Notes under the pieces: model-generated
The model's input: the letters and a program-made list of their open reading frames with translations, nothing else
The model's database searches: none
What the model was told of the DNA's origin: nothing
Assembly (NCBI GenBank): GCA_030621535.1
Contig: JAUXHM010000009.1
Location: 1-14,263, forward strand
DNA: 14,263 bases
From: Candidatus Methanophagales archaeon
GTDB lineage: Archaea; Halobacteriota; Syntropharchaeia; Alkanophagales; Methanospirareceae
Direction: 5' to 3'
Made by a program: the position numbers and the translations under genes
Shown here: piece by piece, positions 7,025 to 14,263 of the stretch
Position numbering within the stretch: the stretch's first letter is position 1
How the letters are laid out: each line of letters begins with the position of its first letter

Positions 7025-8488
7025 ATGCGAGAAGGATGTGGAATAGCGGGTATCGCTTTAACGCAGGAGGATGCAGCTTTGCCTATCTTTTATGCTCTTT
7101 ACGCTTTACAACACCGAGGGCAGGAATCCGCAGGTATAGCGGTGAGTACGGGAGAGGATTTCAGAGCTAAAGGGAACGGAATAGGTGAGTCTGCGAAGGA
7201 CATAACACTGGCAAGGGGGATGGGTTTTGTTTACGAAGTTTTCAACAAGCATCGGTTAGAATCGTTAAAAGGGAATATTGGTATAGGGCACGTCAGATAT
7301 TCCACGACCGGCGCGTCGCAAGCAGAGAATGCCGAGCCTTTACTCGTGAATTATCGTAAGGGTAAAATCGCCATTGCACATAACGGTAACCTTGTGAATA
7401 CCGCAGAGCTGAGAAGAGAGTTAGAACGAGATGGCAGGGTTTTTCATTCTACCACGGACACGGAAGTGATAGCGCAGTTACTTGCAAAGGAACTGGTGAA
7501 GTATGACCCGATAGACGCAATAAAGGAACTGATGAAACGAGTAATCGGGTCATATTCGCTGGCTATTTTGTTGAATGACACCTTAATCGCCGTTAGAGAC
7601 CCGTTAGGTATTAAACCGTTGTGCGTTGCCGAAATACCGGATACTGAAAACGGGGGGCGCAGCAGCGGGTATATAATCGCATCAGAAAGTCCTGCAATAG
7701 AAATGTTAGGTGGAACTTCAATACGAGATGTGAAACCAGGCGAAGTATTAATGATAAAAGACGGGCATTTGGAAAGTCATCAATTATATCGAGGGCGAAA
7801 CACGGCTCATTGCGTATTTGAATACATCTACTTTGCACGGCCGGATTCGGTGCTGGATGGAAGGTTGGTGTACGACGTGAGGAGGAAAATAGGCGAGAGA
7901 TTAGCAGAGGAAAGCGATGTGGAAGCAGATATGGTCTCACCGGTGCCAGATTCCGGCATCACGTTTGCGATAGGCTATGCGAAACGGGCAAAAATAGATT
8001 ATCTGGAGGGTTTCATAAAGAACAGGTATGTAGGCAGGACTTTTATCATGCCAGAGGAAGCTTCGCGAGATATTGCGGTGCGACTGAAATTAAACGCCGT
8101 GCGCGCTAATGTGGAGGGAAAAAGAATCGTTCTGGTGGATGACAGTATCGTGCGCGGGACCACATCGCGAAAAATCGTGGGGTATTTGAAAAAGAAAGGT
8201 GCGAAAGAGGTGCATATGCGAATAGGCAGTCCACCAATAATAGCACCCTGCTACCTCGGCATTGATACGCCAACGAGGGACGAGTTATTAGCTTCAAAAA
8301 GGAGCCTGGACGACATTTGCAAGTTTTTAAATGTTGATTCCGTTGGCTATCTGAGCATGGAAGGGCTTATAGATTCAGTAGGAATAGATGCGAATAATCT
8401 TTGCCTGGGCTGTCTGACGGAAAAATACCCCGTGGAAATACCGGGAGAAGTGTGCGTCGCGAGACAGTTGAAATTGACGCAATTCTAA
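7025..8488 (+). CDS. purF: Amidophosphoribosyltransferase (PurF)
   Basis: PurF makes 5-phosphoribosylamine from PRPP and glutamine, the first step of purine synthesis. The open frame extends back to an ATG at 6956, but I choose 7025. It is preceded by GGTG at 7017-7020 and puts the catalytic cysteine at residue 5 (MREGCGIAG), as expected after a short propeptide. The glutaminase domain shows QHRGQESAG (29-37), RYSTTG and HNGN. The phosphoribosyltransferase domain has the PRPP loop VLVDDSIVRGTTS (D372, D373). Four cysteines in the positions of the Bacillus-type [4Fe-4S] enzyme are present: C263 (HCVFEYIYFARPDS), C409 (APCYLGIDTPT), C460 and C463 (LCLGC). The enzyme is therefore probably the oxygen-sensitive iron-sulfur type, fitting an anaerobe. 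It has 487 residues, typical of the family. No other purine gene is adjacent. Confidence 0.95.
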   Translation: MREGCGIAGIALTQEDAALPIFYALYALQHRGQESAGIAVSTGEDFRAKGNGIGESAKDITLARGMGFVYEVFNKHRLESLKGNIGIGHVRYSTTGASQAENAEPLLVNYRKGKIAIAHNGNLVNTAELRRELERDGRVFHSTTDTEVIAQLLAKELVKYDPIDAIKELMKRVIGSYSLAILLNDTLIAVRDPLGIKPLCVAEIPDTENGGRSSGYIIASESPAIEMLGGTSIRDVKPGEVLMIKDGHLESHQLYRGRNTAHCVFEYIYFARPDSVLDGRLVYDVRRKIGERLAEESDVEADMVSPVPDSGITFAIGYAKRAKIDYLEGFIKNRYVGRTFIMPEEASRDIAVRLKLNAVRANVEGKRIVLVDDSIVRGTTSRKIVGYLKKKGAKEVHMRIGSPPIIAPCYLGIDTPTRDELLASKRSLDDICKFLNVDSVGYLSMEGLIDSVGIDANNLCLGCLTEKYPVEIPGEVCVARQLKLTQF

Positions 8489-8530
8489 CTTTCACGAGAT
8501 TAACACAAGAAAAAATAATTTTTGATAATC

Positions 8531-8667
8531 GGACGCAGATGAACGCAGATAATCAGGATTTTAAATATAAAGAATTGACGGAGGAGATTATTAGAATCTT
8601 TTATCGAGTTTATAATAAACTGAGTTGGGAAATGGTTTTCTGCGTAAATCCGCGTAAATCTGCGTCC
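8531..8667. mobile_element. Decayed palindromic element (copy 1) with terminal inverted repeats
   Basis: The left end GGACGCAGATGAACGCAGAT and the reverse complement of the right end (GGACGCAGATTTACGCGGAT) match at 17 of 20 positions. Between them lies a shortened GxxExxY-type gene. The same family of ends is seen at 13555-13643. A 13-base block (8506-8518, CAAGAAAAAATAA) also precedes copy 2 at nearly the same distance, and the right flanks agree as well, so the true element is probably longer than the inverted repeats. It fits the widespread ACGCAGATT-type repeats that often enclose GxxExxY genes; movement by a transposase is not shown. The whole gap 8489-8815 otherwise holds only the sepF leader. 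Confidence 0.7.
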
Positions 8668-8670
8668 TAA
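8539..8670 (+). pseudogene. GxxExxY-family gene remnant (internally deleted)
   Basis: From the ATG at 8539 the frame encodes 43 residues. The N-terminus (DFKYKELTEEIIRIFYRVYN, then KLSWE) is the recognisable start of the GxxExxY/PDDEXK_3-like family. The last residues (VNPRKSAS) are the product of reading the right inverted repeat, common at the C-terminus of these proteins. Intact members are about 125-140 residues, so about 90 central residues, including the signature motif, are missing. The deletion left the ends in frame. A longer frame overlapping the end of purF exists but is a shadow upstream. The small product is unlikely to be active. Confidence 0.65.
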
Positions 8671-8685
8671 ATAGGTAGCGGTTAT

Positions 8686-8703
8686 ACTTTATCTATAATA
8701 AAA
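8686..8703 (+). promoter_or_regulatory. TATA-like block on the right flank of element copy 1
   Basis: TACTTTATCTATAATAAA lies 16 bases after the stop codon of the GxxExxY remnant. An almost identical block follows element copy 2 (13662-13680) at the same distance. It could start transcription toward sepF, 112 bases downstream, with a leader near 90 bases. Other AT-rich candidates lie closer to sepF (ATATTTTTATG near 8733), so its use is uncertain. Confidence 0.4.
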
Positions 8704-12298: not shown

Positions 12299-13504
12299 AT
12301 GGAAATAAAAAGGAATATAGAAGTTGAGTTCGTGAACACAAAACCCGTTGAAGAACAAGCGATAGAAATGGTGGAACGAAAAGGGCTGGGGCATCCGGAC
12401 AGCTTATGCGATGGTATAGCCGAAGCCGTTAGCGTAGCGTTATGCAAAGAATATAAAAGGAAATGCGGGATGGTATTGCATCACAACACGGACAAAGTAC
12501 AGCTCATCGCAGGTAGGTCAAACCCGGAATACGGTGGTGGTGAGGTCATTTCGCCGATATGCATTCTGCTGGGTGGTCGAGCAACGCGTGAATTTGAAGG
12601 CGAGGAAATCGCAGTTGATACAGTAGCGATACGAGCGGCGAGGGAATATTTACGGAACCTCAGGAATCTGGATATGGATAGTCACGTTGTAGTAGATAGC
12701 AAACTGGGAATGGGCTCTTCTGATCTTTTAACGGTTTTTCAGGGTGAGGGTAAGGACAGGGCAATACCGATAGCGAATGACACCTCCTTTGGCGTTGCAC
12801 ATGCTCCTTTTTCTGAGACTGAATCCATAGTGCTTAACGCAGAAAACAAGGTGATGGCTGAATACCGTGACCGTGAGCTCGCGATAGGAGAAGATATGAA
12901 GATAATGGCACTTAGAGAAAAAGACCGGATAACTTTAACGGTTGGCGATGCCTTTGTATCGAAATACGTGGACGATTACCAGCACTATACGGATACAAAA
13001 CAGCGATTGAACGATTTTGTTAACCGTGTCGCCGAAACACATACGAACAGAGAAGTAACTACGCAGGTTAATATGGCTGACACAAGAGACTCGGTTTATC
13101 TCACGGTAACCGGAACCTCAGCGGAAATGGGCGATGATGGAGCCACTGGTCGTGGCAACCGGTGCAACGGGCTTATCACGCCAAGCAGACCCATCAGCAT
13201 GGAAGCGACATCGGGAAAAAATCCCATAAACCATACCGGGAAAATATACAATTTGCTTGCCAATAAAATAGCCAATGAAGTCGTAGATAGCGTAGATGGG
13301 ATTCAAGAAGTGTATATAAAGATCCTTTCGGAGATAGGCAGGAGGATAGACGACCCCAAGGTGGCGACCGCTCAGATTGTCCCACGGAGCAATGTAAACC
13401 CTGGAGTAATGGAAAAGAAGGTTAGCAGAATAATAGATGATTGGCTTTCGAATATTGCGGAGATAACGGAGATGGCGATTAGAGGTGAGTTGAGAACGTT
13501 TTAA
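12299..13504 (+). CDS. metK: Archaeal S-adenosylmethionine synthetase
   Basis: Methionine adenosyltransferase makes SAM from methionine and ATP. The 401-residue protein is the archaeal class, distinct in sequence from bacterial MetK. Visible family blocks are [17 protein letters not shown] near residue 26, [38 protein letters not shown], and the long conserved [20 protein letters not shown] followed by [20 protein letters not shown]. The end (IRGELRTF) is complete. The start ATG at 12299 has GGT a few bases upstream and a normal N-terminus for the family. It stands alone. A diverged second copy of its last 61 codons lies at 13997-14182. SAM is the cofactor of radical-SAM enzymes such as CofH, but no co-regulation is visible. 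Confidence 0.96.
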
Positions 13505-13585
13505 TCTCCTTACAAATGTTTACGATATATCAAGAAAAAATAAATTATTTAAACGACACAGATTAACGCAGATTAACACAGATGA
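13319..13585 (+). repeat. Direct repeat copy A (metK 3' end plus element left arm)
   Basis: This 267-base stretch covers the last 61 sense codons of metK, its stop and 3' flank, and the left arm of the palindromic element. It aligns without gaps to 13997-14263. By my count 16 bases differ, all in the first 168; the final 99 are identical. Confidence 0.9.
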
Positions 13586-13643
13586 TAAAAATCAACAATG
13601 TCAAACTTAAATAAGTCCGCGTAAATCAGTGTAAATCCGTGTC
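13555..13643. mobile_element. Palindromic repeat element (copy 2)
   Basis: Left arm GACACAGATTAACGCAGATT... (13555-13582) and right arm (13616-13643) are imperfect 28-base inverted repeats, 21 of 28 matching, around a 33-base AT-rich centre without a gene. Each arm is itself made of ACGCAGATTA-type units. It is the gene-less counterpart of copy 1 at 8531-8667, with similar flanks on both sides. RNA or single-stranded DNA from it would fold into a hairpin. Whether it moves on its own is unknown. Confidence 0.7.
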
Positions 13644-13661
13644 TTAAATAGAAGGAAGTCA

Positions 13662-13680
13662 TACTTTATATACAATAAAA
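13662..13680 (+). promoter_or_regulatory. TATA box on the right flank of element copy 2
   Basis: TACTTTATATACAATAAAA contains TTTATATA (13665-13672), a good archaeal TATA box. It lies 27-34 bases before the antitoxin ATG at 13699. The block is shared with the flank of element copy 1, suggesting that the element family carries an outward promoter. Confidence 0.5.
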
Positions 13681-13686
13681 ATAATG

Positions 13687-13692
13687 GGTGAT
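13687..13692 (+). promoter_or_regulatory. GGTGAT ribosome-binding site deciding the antitoxin start
   Basis: GGTGAT is complementary to the 3' end of archaeal 16S rRNA. It ends six bases before the ATG at 13699, favouring that start over the ATG at 13684, which has no such box. Confidence 0.6.
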
Positions 13693-13698
13693 GAAAAA

Positions 13699-13911
13699 AT
13701 GAGTGAAGCAGTTTCTGTGTTTGACAAAGGAGCATTAGAACTTCTGTTTCAGACGAGAAACCTCTTGGAAGAGGTTCTTGAAACGATGGATATTTTAGCA
13801 GATGAAGAATTAATGAAGGCGATAAAAGAATCAGAAGATGAGATAGAAAGGGGCGAGGCAAGGGATTTAAAGGATTTTGTTAAGGAGCTCGGTTTAGAAG
13901 ATGAGTTATGA
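13699..13911 (+). CDS. Antitoxin-like small acidic protein
   Basis: The product from 13699 is 70 residues, acidic and mostly helical (ALELLFQTRNLLEEVLETMD, then ADEELMKAIKESEDEIERGE). It ends in a segment typical of RelB-type antitoxins that wrap their toxin (EARDLKDFVKELGLEDEL). Its stop overlaps the ATG of a RelE-like toxin remnant in the classical antitoxin-toxin arrangement (ATG at 13901, stop TGA 13909-13911). I do not see a clear DNA-binding fold at the N-terminus, so the exact family is unassigned. The open frame starts at 13684, but the GGTGAT box favours 13699. With its toxin broken, it is an orphan antitoxin. Residual autoregulation or neutralisation of another toxin is possible but unproven. 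Confidence 0.7.
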   Translation: MSEAVSVFDKGALELLFQTRNLLEEVLETMDILADEELMKAIKESEDEIERGEARDLKDFVKELGLEDEL

Positions 13912-13992
13912 ATTTACGAAATCCGAGATAACATAGTTTATCTGCTCGGAGTGGGGCATAGAAAGAAAATCTACGAGATGTTAGCGAGATGA
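13901..13992 (+). pseudogene. RelE/ParE-like toxin remnant with central deletion
   Basis: The ATG at 13901 overlaps the antitoxin end and begins MSYEF, like many RelE toxins, but this frame stops soon after at a TAG. In another frame, directly after the antitoxin stop, is the unmistakable end of a RelE-type mRNA interferase: IYEIRDNIVYLLGVGHRKKI followed by YEMLAR and TGA (13990-13992). About 55-60 central residues are missing, apparently by a deletion joining the first few codons to the last 26. The product would be inactive. Loss of the toxin while the antitoxin stays open is the expected direction of decay. Confidence 0.75.
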
Positions 13993-13996
13993 AAAT

Positions 13997-14182
13997 AAAA
14001 TTCTTTCGGAGATAGGCAGAAGGATAGACGACCCGAAGGTAGCAACCGCTCAGATTGTCCCACGGAGCGATGTAAACCCTGGAGTAATGGAAAAGAAGGT
14101 TGGACGAATAATAGATGATTGGCTATCAAACATCGCGGAGATAACGGAGATGGCAATTAGAGGGGAGTTGAGAACGTTTTAA
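13997..14182 (+). pseudogene. Second, diverged 3' end of metK (fragment)
   Basis: This stretch encodes [20 protein letters not shown] through IRGELRTF and TAA, the last 61 residues of the SAM synthetase, in a frame with no start codon ahead of it. Compared with metK at 13319-13504, 15 codons differ but only two change the residue (Asn to Asp, Ser to Gly). The rest are silent. It begins five bases after the toxin remnant's stop. It must derive from a functional metK of a related genome or an older complete duplicate, not from simple decay in place. Confidence 0.85.
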
Positions 14183-14232
14183 TCTCCTTACAAATGTTTA
14201 CGATATATCAAGAAAAAATAAATTATTTAAAC

Positions 14233-14263
14233 GACACAGATTAACGCAGATTAACACAGATGA
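14233..14263. mobile_element. Palindromic repeat element (copy 3, left arm only)
   Basis: The bases are identical to 13555-13585, the left arm of copy 2. The window ends inside it, so the right arm cannot be judged. Confidence 0.7.

Follow-up and report, generated by a model that had tools for sequence, protein, structure and literature searches.

Two copies of the metK 3' end in an ANME-1 draft genome: a possible tandem duplication followed by allele exchange

Introduction

ANME-1 are methane-eating archaea that are known mostly from metagenomes. Prophages that use the 3' end of a housekeeping gene offer a parallel to the locus reported here; at icd, phage 21 and e14 leave a displaced gene end with largely silent differences. 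The two share a site in icd of E. coli (PMC12803456). The locus behind metK in one ANME-1 draft genome resembles this system in its target, the 3' end of a housekeeping gene, in the presence of a displaced end and in the largely silent differences, whereas no integrase was found, there is no element body and the spacer is just 411 nt.

Partial tandem duplication with allele exchange or gene conversion is alike in the direct repeat, the one new junction, the identity step and the mostly silent differences. It differs in that the proposed exchange tract at this locus ends inside the repeat and that the contig breaks off within the second copy, which leaves the order of events to deduction. The locus also carries a short palindromic element, likened to MITE-like elements by its length of about 150 nt, its tens of matches per genome and its hairpin. 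No mention of metK was found among the papers listed for recombination in ANME-1/Methanophagales.

Results and Discussion

The repeat pair and the end of the contig

The window (the whole stretch of DNA analysed, 14,263 nt) is contig C56 of G000, an ANME-1 (Methanophagales) draft genome of 1.09 Mb in 170 contigs that is 60.6% complete; most of its nearest named relatives are filed under Methanophagales or ANME-1. The full-length gene and the repeated parts are as follows.

12299..13504, + strand: metK, archaeal methionine adenosyltransferase, 401 aa, full length (Pfam PF01941, 2.2e-165; NCBIfam NF003364, above cut-off)
13319..13501, + strand: tail A, codons 341-401 of the full metK (repeat alignment)
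13997..14179, + strand: tail B, an orphan copy of metK codons 341-401 (repeat alignment)
14165..14263, + strand: stretch identical to 13487-13585, reaching the contig end (repeat alignment)

A preliminary description had reported 267-base repeats with 16 differences in the 168 bases at the coding side and none in the last 99, and alignment confirmed these figures. The direct copies (13319-13585 and 13997-14263) lie in the same sense at a spacing of 678 nt, and their 16 differences fall at offsets 2-167. As also reported, 15 codons differ between the tails; 13 of the changes are silent, and the other two are at codon 365 (N/D) and codon 376 (S/G). The identical 99 nt comprise 18 coding nt including the stop codon, 25 intergenic nt and 56 nt of the dispersed element. 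The open frame of tail B starts just 4 codons upstream of it, with no ATG, GTG or TTG there.

Simulation of 16 random substitutions in 168 nt changed the amino acid in about 11 codons on average, and of the 20,000 runs made for each of three transition weights, none gave two or fewer amino-acid changes. Because the amino-acid changes are far fewer than the random expectation, the differences between the tails most likely arose in working metK genes, which bears out the earlier claim of accumulation under selection. An orphan tail decaying in place was ruled out by the 13 silent changes among 15 codons and by the position of the other two on the side of the full gene. The probability of a 99-nt run without mismatch at 9.5% divergence was 5e-5 at a given place and 0.005 anywhere within 1000 nt. 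The identity step from 16/168 to 0/99 is real and unlikely by chance, and the mosaic pattern described earlier holds, although the place where the identical stretch stops on the right may have no biological meaning.

The right end of C56 overlaps its own interior by exactly 99 nt, and exactly 119 nt are common to contig ends at eight ends (66 contigs compared, three of them with N). The next overlap lengths at other ends were 72, 34 (contig C63 against tail B), 23, 19 and 17 nt. The 119-nt end overlaps are a sign of k-mer graph assembly, and both 99 and 119 are among the k-steps of multi-k assemblers in common use. The right limit, previously taken as a sharp biological edge, coincides with a contig end at an assembler-like overlap length and has the appearance of an assembler k-step. 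The assembler apparently lost the ability to separate copy 2 from copy 1 at this point and ended the contig, a cause read from the observed overlap length. The identical stretch is therefore at least 99 nt, a lower limit, since the contig ends 99 nt past the last mismatch, and the absence of differences in the next 99 nt is partly a stopping rule, because the contig end cuts it at a likely k-step length. If so, the locus is a worked example of an assembler k-mer length posing as a sharp biological boundary.

The contig end at exactly this overlap is also what would be seen if tails A, B and a third tail, tail C on contig C63, came from different genomes (strains or species) that were assembled or binned together. 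Such a mixture is a strong rival, quite conceivable although we lean against it; under it the bin's own metK end may be tail C. Some redundancy in the bin is hinted at by C18 (1-822) and C55 (11146-11965), which are 92.7% alike over 822 nt near contig ends and represent either a segmental duplicate or a strain variant. On the other hand, apart from this pair and the window's own repeat, no alignment of at least 220 nt above 84% identity was present among 66 of the 170 contigs.

Sequence between the tails

The spacer and its borders carry the following features.

13505..13529, + strand: short 3' flank of metK
13530..13682, no strand: copy of a dispersed palindromic element of about 150 nt (similarity searches, fold)
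13684..13911, + strand: antitoxin-like ORF, 75 aa (85% identical to the ORF before an intact ParE/RelE-type toxin gene in genome G061)
13901..13992, + strand: remnant of a ParE/RelE-type toxin gene (about 160 nt of the middle missing compared with G061)
13996..13997, + strand: junction of the toxin-antitoxin remnant end with metK codon 341

The flank starts like the flank 3' of metK in G022 and G017, and another flank type lies 3' of metK in G001, G002 and G019 and 3' of tail C. The palindromic element is predicted to fold into a hairpin (z -3.15). Many similar copies are dispersed, as in MITE-like elements: of the 47 matches in the own genome (40 of 124 candidates scored), 45 overlap the element, some of them as pieces of one copy; with up to 16 candidates scored in each, 40 of the 51 family genomes have matches. 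Among the copies scored, the best eight outside the window are all in G011 of genus g7 (89-94%). The nearest copies in G011, which belongs to another genus than the window, are 93-94% alike, and full-length copies in the window's own genome reach at most 88% among those scored, with shorter pieces up to 94%. The exchange had previously been tied to this element; no such tie was found, and the last mismatch, at 13486, lies 44 nt before it.

Separate insertions of the element at the identical base behind both tails were considered and are unlikely, since the arms are identical while the scored full-length copies of this genome are no more than 88% like this one. At 8532-8703 the window carries a relative of the element, with inverted ends at 8531-8550 and 8648-8667 and 65 nt that are 78% alike to 13616-13680. 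A GxxExxY link of this relative was considered and dropped, as neither Pfam nor NCBIfam gave a match for the ORF at 8401-8667. Scans of the whole window for Rfam families and tRNAs found nothing.

The second gene of the intact pair in G061 encodes a ParE/RelE-type toxin (PF05016, 2.5e-9). The sole Pfam match of the antitoxin-like ORF is below cut-off and not credible, and its G061 homologue has no Pfam or NCBIfam match. The best score for the toxin-antitoxin remnant was obtained in G022 of genus g7 (87%, positions 65-313 of 313), where it also lies directly behind metK, and the G022 sequence departs from that of the window at the junction 13996/13997. In G019 (g4), remnant positions 1-220 matched at 89%, above the 87% of G022. 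The remnant behind metK in G022 (L087) is shorter than that of the window and lacks the start of the antitoxin ORF.

The single novel junction at 13996/13997 with head-to-tail direct copies is the arrangement left by a tandem duplication. No smaller event than this putative duplication yields the junction together with the spacing, the shared orientation of the copies and their identical flank and element arm. Our preferred explanation, held tentatively and at somewhat less than even confidence, is that 13319-13996 was duplicated in tandem and that the metK 3' part was later exchanged with another ANME-1 allele. The 678-nt segment from metK codon 341 to just past the toxin-antitoxin remnant would have been duplicated, and this step alone would produce the junction and leave each tail followed by an identical flank and element arm. 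The full-length metK would later have swapped codons ~306-396 with another ANME-1 allele by ordinary homologous recombination, the exchange halting near the stop codon, where metK loci of differing flanks cease to be homologous. Tail B would keep the older sequence, with no function assigned to it, and the contig would end as copy 2 enters sequence that the assembler presumably could not tell from copy 1. We infer the timing, direction and donor of the exchange, and its left break near codon 305 is a statistical one. Copy 2 is visible for 267 of the 678 nt before the contig ends at 14263, which counts against duplication with exchange. The single own-genome match to the toxin-antitoxin remnant also counts against it, although it is expected from a collapsed repeat and from absence alike.

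The join of the remnant to tail B bears on the mixture of genomes as well, in that it offers a graph assembler no long stretch of shared sequence at which to switch.

The exchanged part of the full-length gene

The second tail had been regarded as the outsider. A count over 14 relatives reverses this view: of the 16 sites that differ, 13 have the base of tail B as the majority state and 2 that of tail A, with one tie. All 14 relatives have G, the base of tail B, at the first position of both codon 365 and codon 376. The tail of the full-length gene is therefore the more divergent one, because relatives share the tail B states and both amino-acid differences are on the A side. An exchange of the 3' part of the full gene would explain the unusual amino acids of tail A as well as its silent divergence.

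Of 183 positions, tail B has 10 mismatches to G022, 12 to G011 (both genus g7) and 13 to G005 of the window's genus. The mismatches of tail A number 13 to the shorter tail on C63, 16 to tail B, 18 to G022 and 19 to G005, and tail A thus has no near relative. For codons 378-396 of this tail, L084 and L090 come closest (2 mismatches), and codons 301-340 of the window metK are closer to G005 than to g7, so that no single donor fits. The encoded protein is 94% identical to that of G001. Between these two genes, 36 of 900 positions differ in codons 1-300 and 26 of 183 in tail A (Fisher p 1.3e-6). The proposed tract is the following.

13214..13486, + strand: putative exchanged tract, codons ~306-396, not following the gene body (left end placed by maximum chi-square against relatives, right end where identity with copy 2 resumes)

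Maximum chi-square analysis placed a break after codon 305 in all six window-centred triplets (permutation p 0.0005-0.001). Besides the boundary that had been proposed in or next to the repeat element, the full gene has a further break on the upstream side, near codon 305. The same break appeared equally in both G001-centred triplets, and which of the two genes changed, that of the window or that of G001, is not polarised by it. Two other triplets among relatives gave breaks after codon 361 (p 0.0045) and at 282 (p 0.0005).

The longest exact match near the break was 80 nt, with G005, in a comparison of the window metK with 10 relatives, and 83 nt in three further gene pairs; a 128-nt exact match with G001 lies elsewhere (codons 148-190). 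The break region is a natural place for homologous exchange and also for confusion of species by an assembler. Against a mixture of genomes, the 80-nt match falls short of both 99 and 119 nt, and no match near the break reaches 99.

In a near set of 15 metK genes including that of the window, which we chose as the closest ones, divergence of the tail agreed poorly with that of codons 1-300 (rho 0.40). The first 60 codons against the rest of codons 1-300 gave rho 0.46 in the same genes, and four interior segments gave 0.85-0.90. The corresponding values without the window and G001 were 0.39 for the tail, 0.44 for the first 60 codons and 0.70-0.86 for the interior segments. The poor agreement of tail and body is limited to close relatives, because over all 703 pairs of 38 metK genes the tail tracks the body well (rho 0.90). 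L113 (length not a multiple of three) and the partial genes L110, L111 and L120 were excluded from trees and tables, and the matches L112, L119 and L121-L135 also stand outside them. Codons 1-60 of the window metK (12299-12478) are 92-96% identical to those of G002, G004 and G005, as against only 77-84% over codons 61-300.

Of the inner branches, 23 of 35 were starred in the metK body tree and 16 of 37 in the tail tree, which was open around tails A, B and C. In AU tests on the tail, part of the tree comparison that the preliminary description had suggested, none of six groupings was rejected (p 0.19-0.44).

The preferred sequence of duplication and exchange is favoured by the proximity of tail B and the element copy to genus g7, by the best score of the remnant in G022 of that genus, by the departure of tail A from G001, by the codon-305 break, by the rho of 0.40 and by the position of G000 as the lone multi-tail genome of 51. 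The g7 signal for tail B and the remnant is weak, with G005 at 13 mismatches and the 89% match in G019 above the 87% of G022. The affinity of tail B and the element to another genus is equally what a mixture of genomes would give.

The third tail on contig C63

Tail C lies at the end of contig C63 (4828-4962; L039, L007) and corresponds to codons 358-401 by protein search. Past it, C63 carries about 1600 nt with RNase III-like and VRR-NUC genes, and then the genes found downstream of metK in relatives. The latter follow metK in G005 (95%) and G001 (94%) and not in G002 and G004, that is, in two of four same-genus genomes, and their distance from metK is about 80 nt in G005, 540 in G001 and 1600 in C63. 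The window DNA upstream of metK is common to G004 (93.5%, 3543 nt) and G005 (89%, 1843 nt), whereas with G001 and G002 only the 100 nt or so closest to metK are shared. Both neighbourhoods therefore flank one metK in G005, which shares the upstream DNA of the window and the downstream genes of C63. C63 itself is not joined to the window, because its end matches tail B for only 34 nt. Two arrangements would fit: a single genome with the insert of the window lying between its metK and C63, or an origin of C63 in another strain.

These results add to the case for a mixture of genomes, since C63 joins a third tail to the genes downstream of metK in G005 and G001, and G005 has the window's upstream DNA and the C63 genes around one metK. 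Tail C is left unexplained by duplication and exchange and counts against that reading, as does the 60.6%-complete bin, in which strains may be mixed. The presence of C63 genes in two of four genomes, the pattern of upstream sharing and the G019 match together weaken the argument for a single source.

The three tails in one bin could also reflect repeated insertion of foreign DNA at the metK 3' end by a single crossover within the tail (Campbell-like), each insertion leaving a displaced tail, with A, B and C as successive tails and C as the old end. The variable distance from metK to the downstream genes (about 80, 540 and 1600 nt) accords with this, as do the matches of the window's upstream side to G004 and G005 and of the C63 side to G001 and G005. 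We nevertheless regard it as unlikely: independent insertions give no reason to expect A and B to be followed by the same flank and element arm, and no contig joins 14263 to C63, whose end matches tail B over 34 nt only.

A site-specific integrative element using the metK 3' end as its attachment site and supplying a new tail in place of the old, in the manner of phage 21 and e14 at icd, would explain why a replaced gene end differs mostly silently and has a displaced tail; tails also seem to be exchanged among near relatives. Displaced gene ends are present in the form of tails B and C, but they are unlinked as one element. No integrase was found next to the metK end, and no second tail is present in the 50 other family genomes, so that we consider this explanation very improbable. 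No tyrosine recombinase was found in G000 (60.6% complete, with the DNA beyond 14263 unseen), nor on the metK contigs of G001, G002, G005, G011 and G022, each of which has one elsewhere, and no resolvase in any of the six genomes. A search of IMG/VR for a metK tail, which finds close relatives only, returned 45 pattern stretches, none of them confirmed, and phage records gave no match.

In a broader reading, the metK 3' end would be a standing exchange point in ANME-1, at which foreign segments enter with their own tail, tails move from genus to genus irrespective of the gene body, and several of them (A, B and C) have been caught here; we think this improbable. If the preferred explanation of duplication and allele exchange is right, exchange between ANME-1 lineages would occur at a scale of about a hundred codons inside a housekeeping gene, and the metK tree of close ANME-1 relatives would mix histories.

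Among the 51 family genomes, G000 alone has more than one metK tail; of the other 50, 46 have one and 4 have none. Outside the family, G030 (C49) and G032 (C1), kin at the class and phylum levels, each contain a second metK match.
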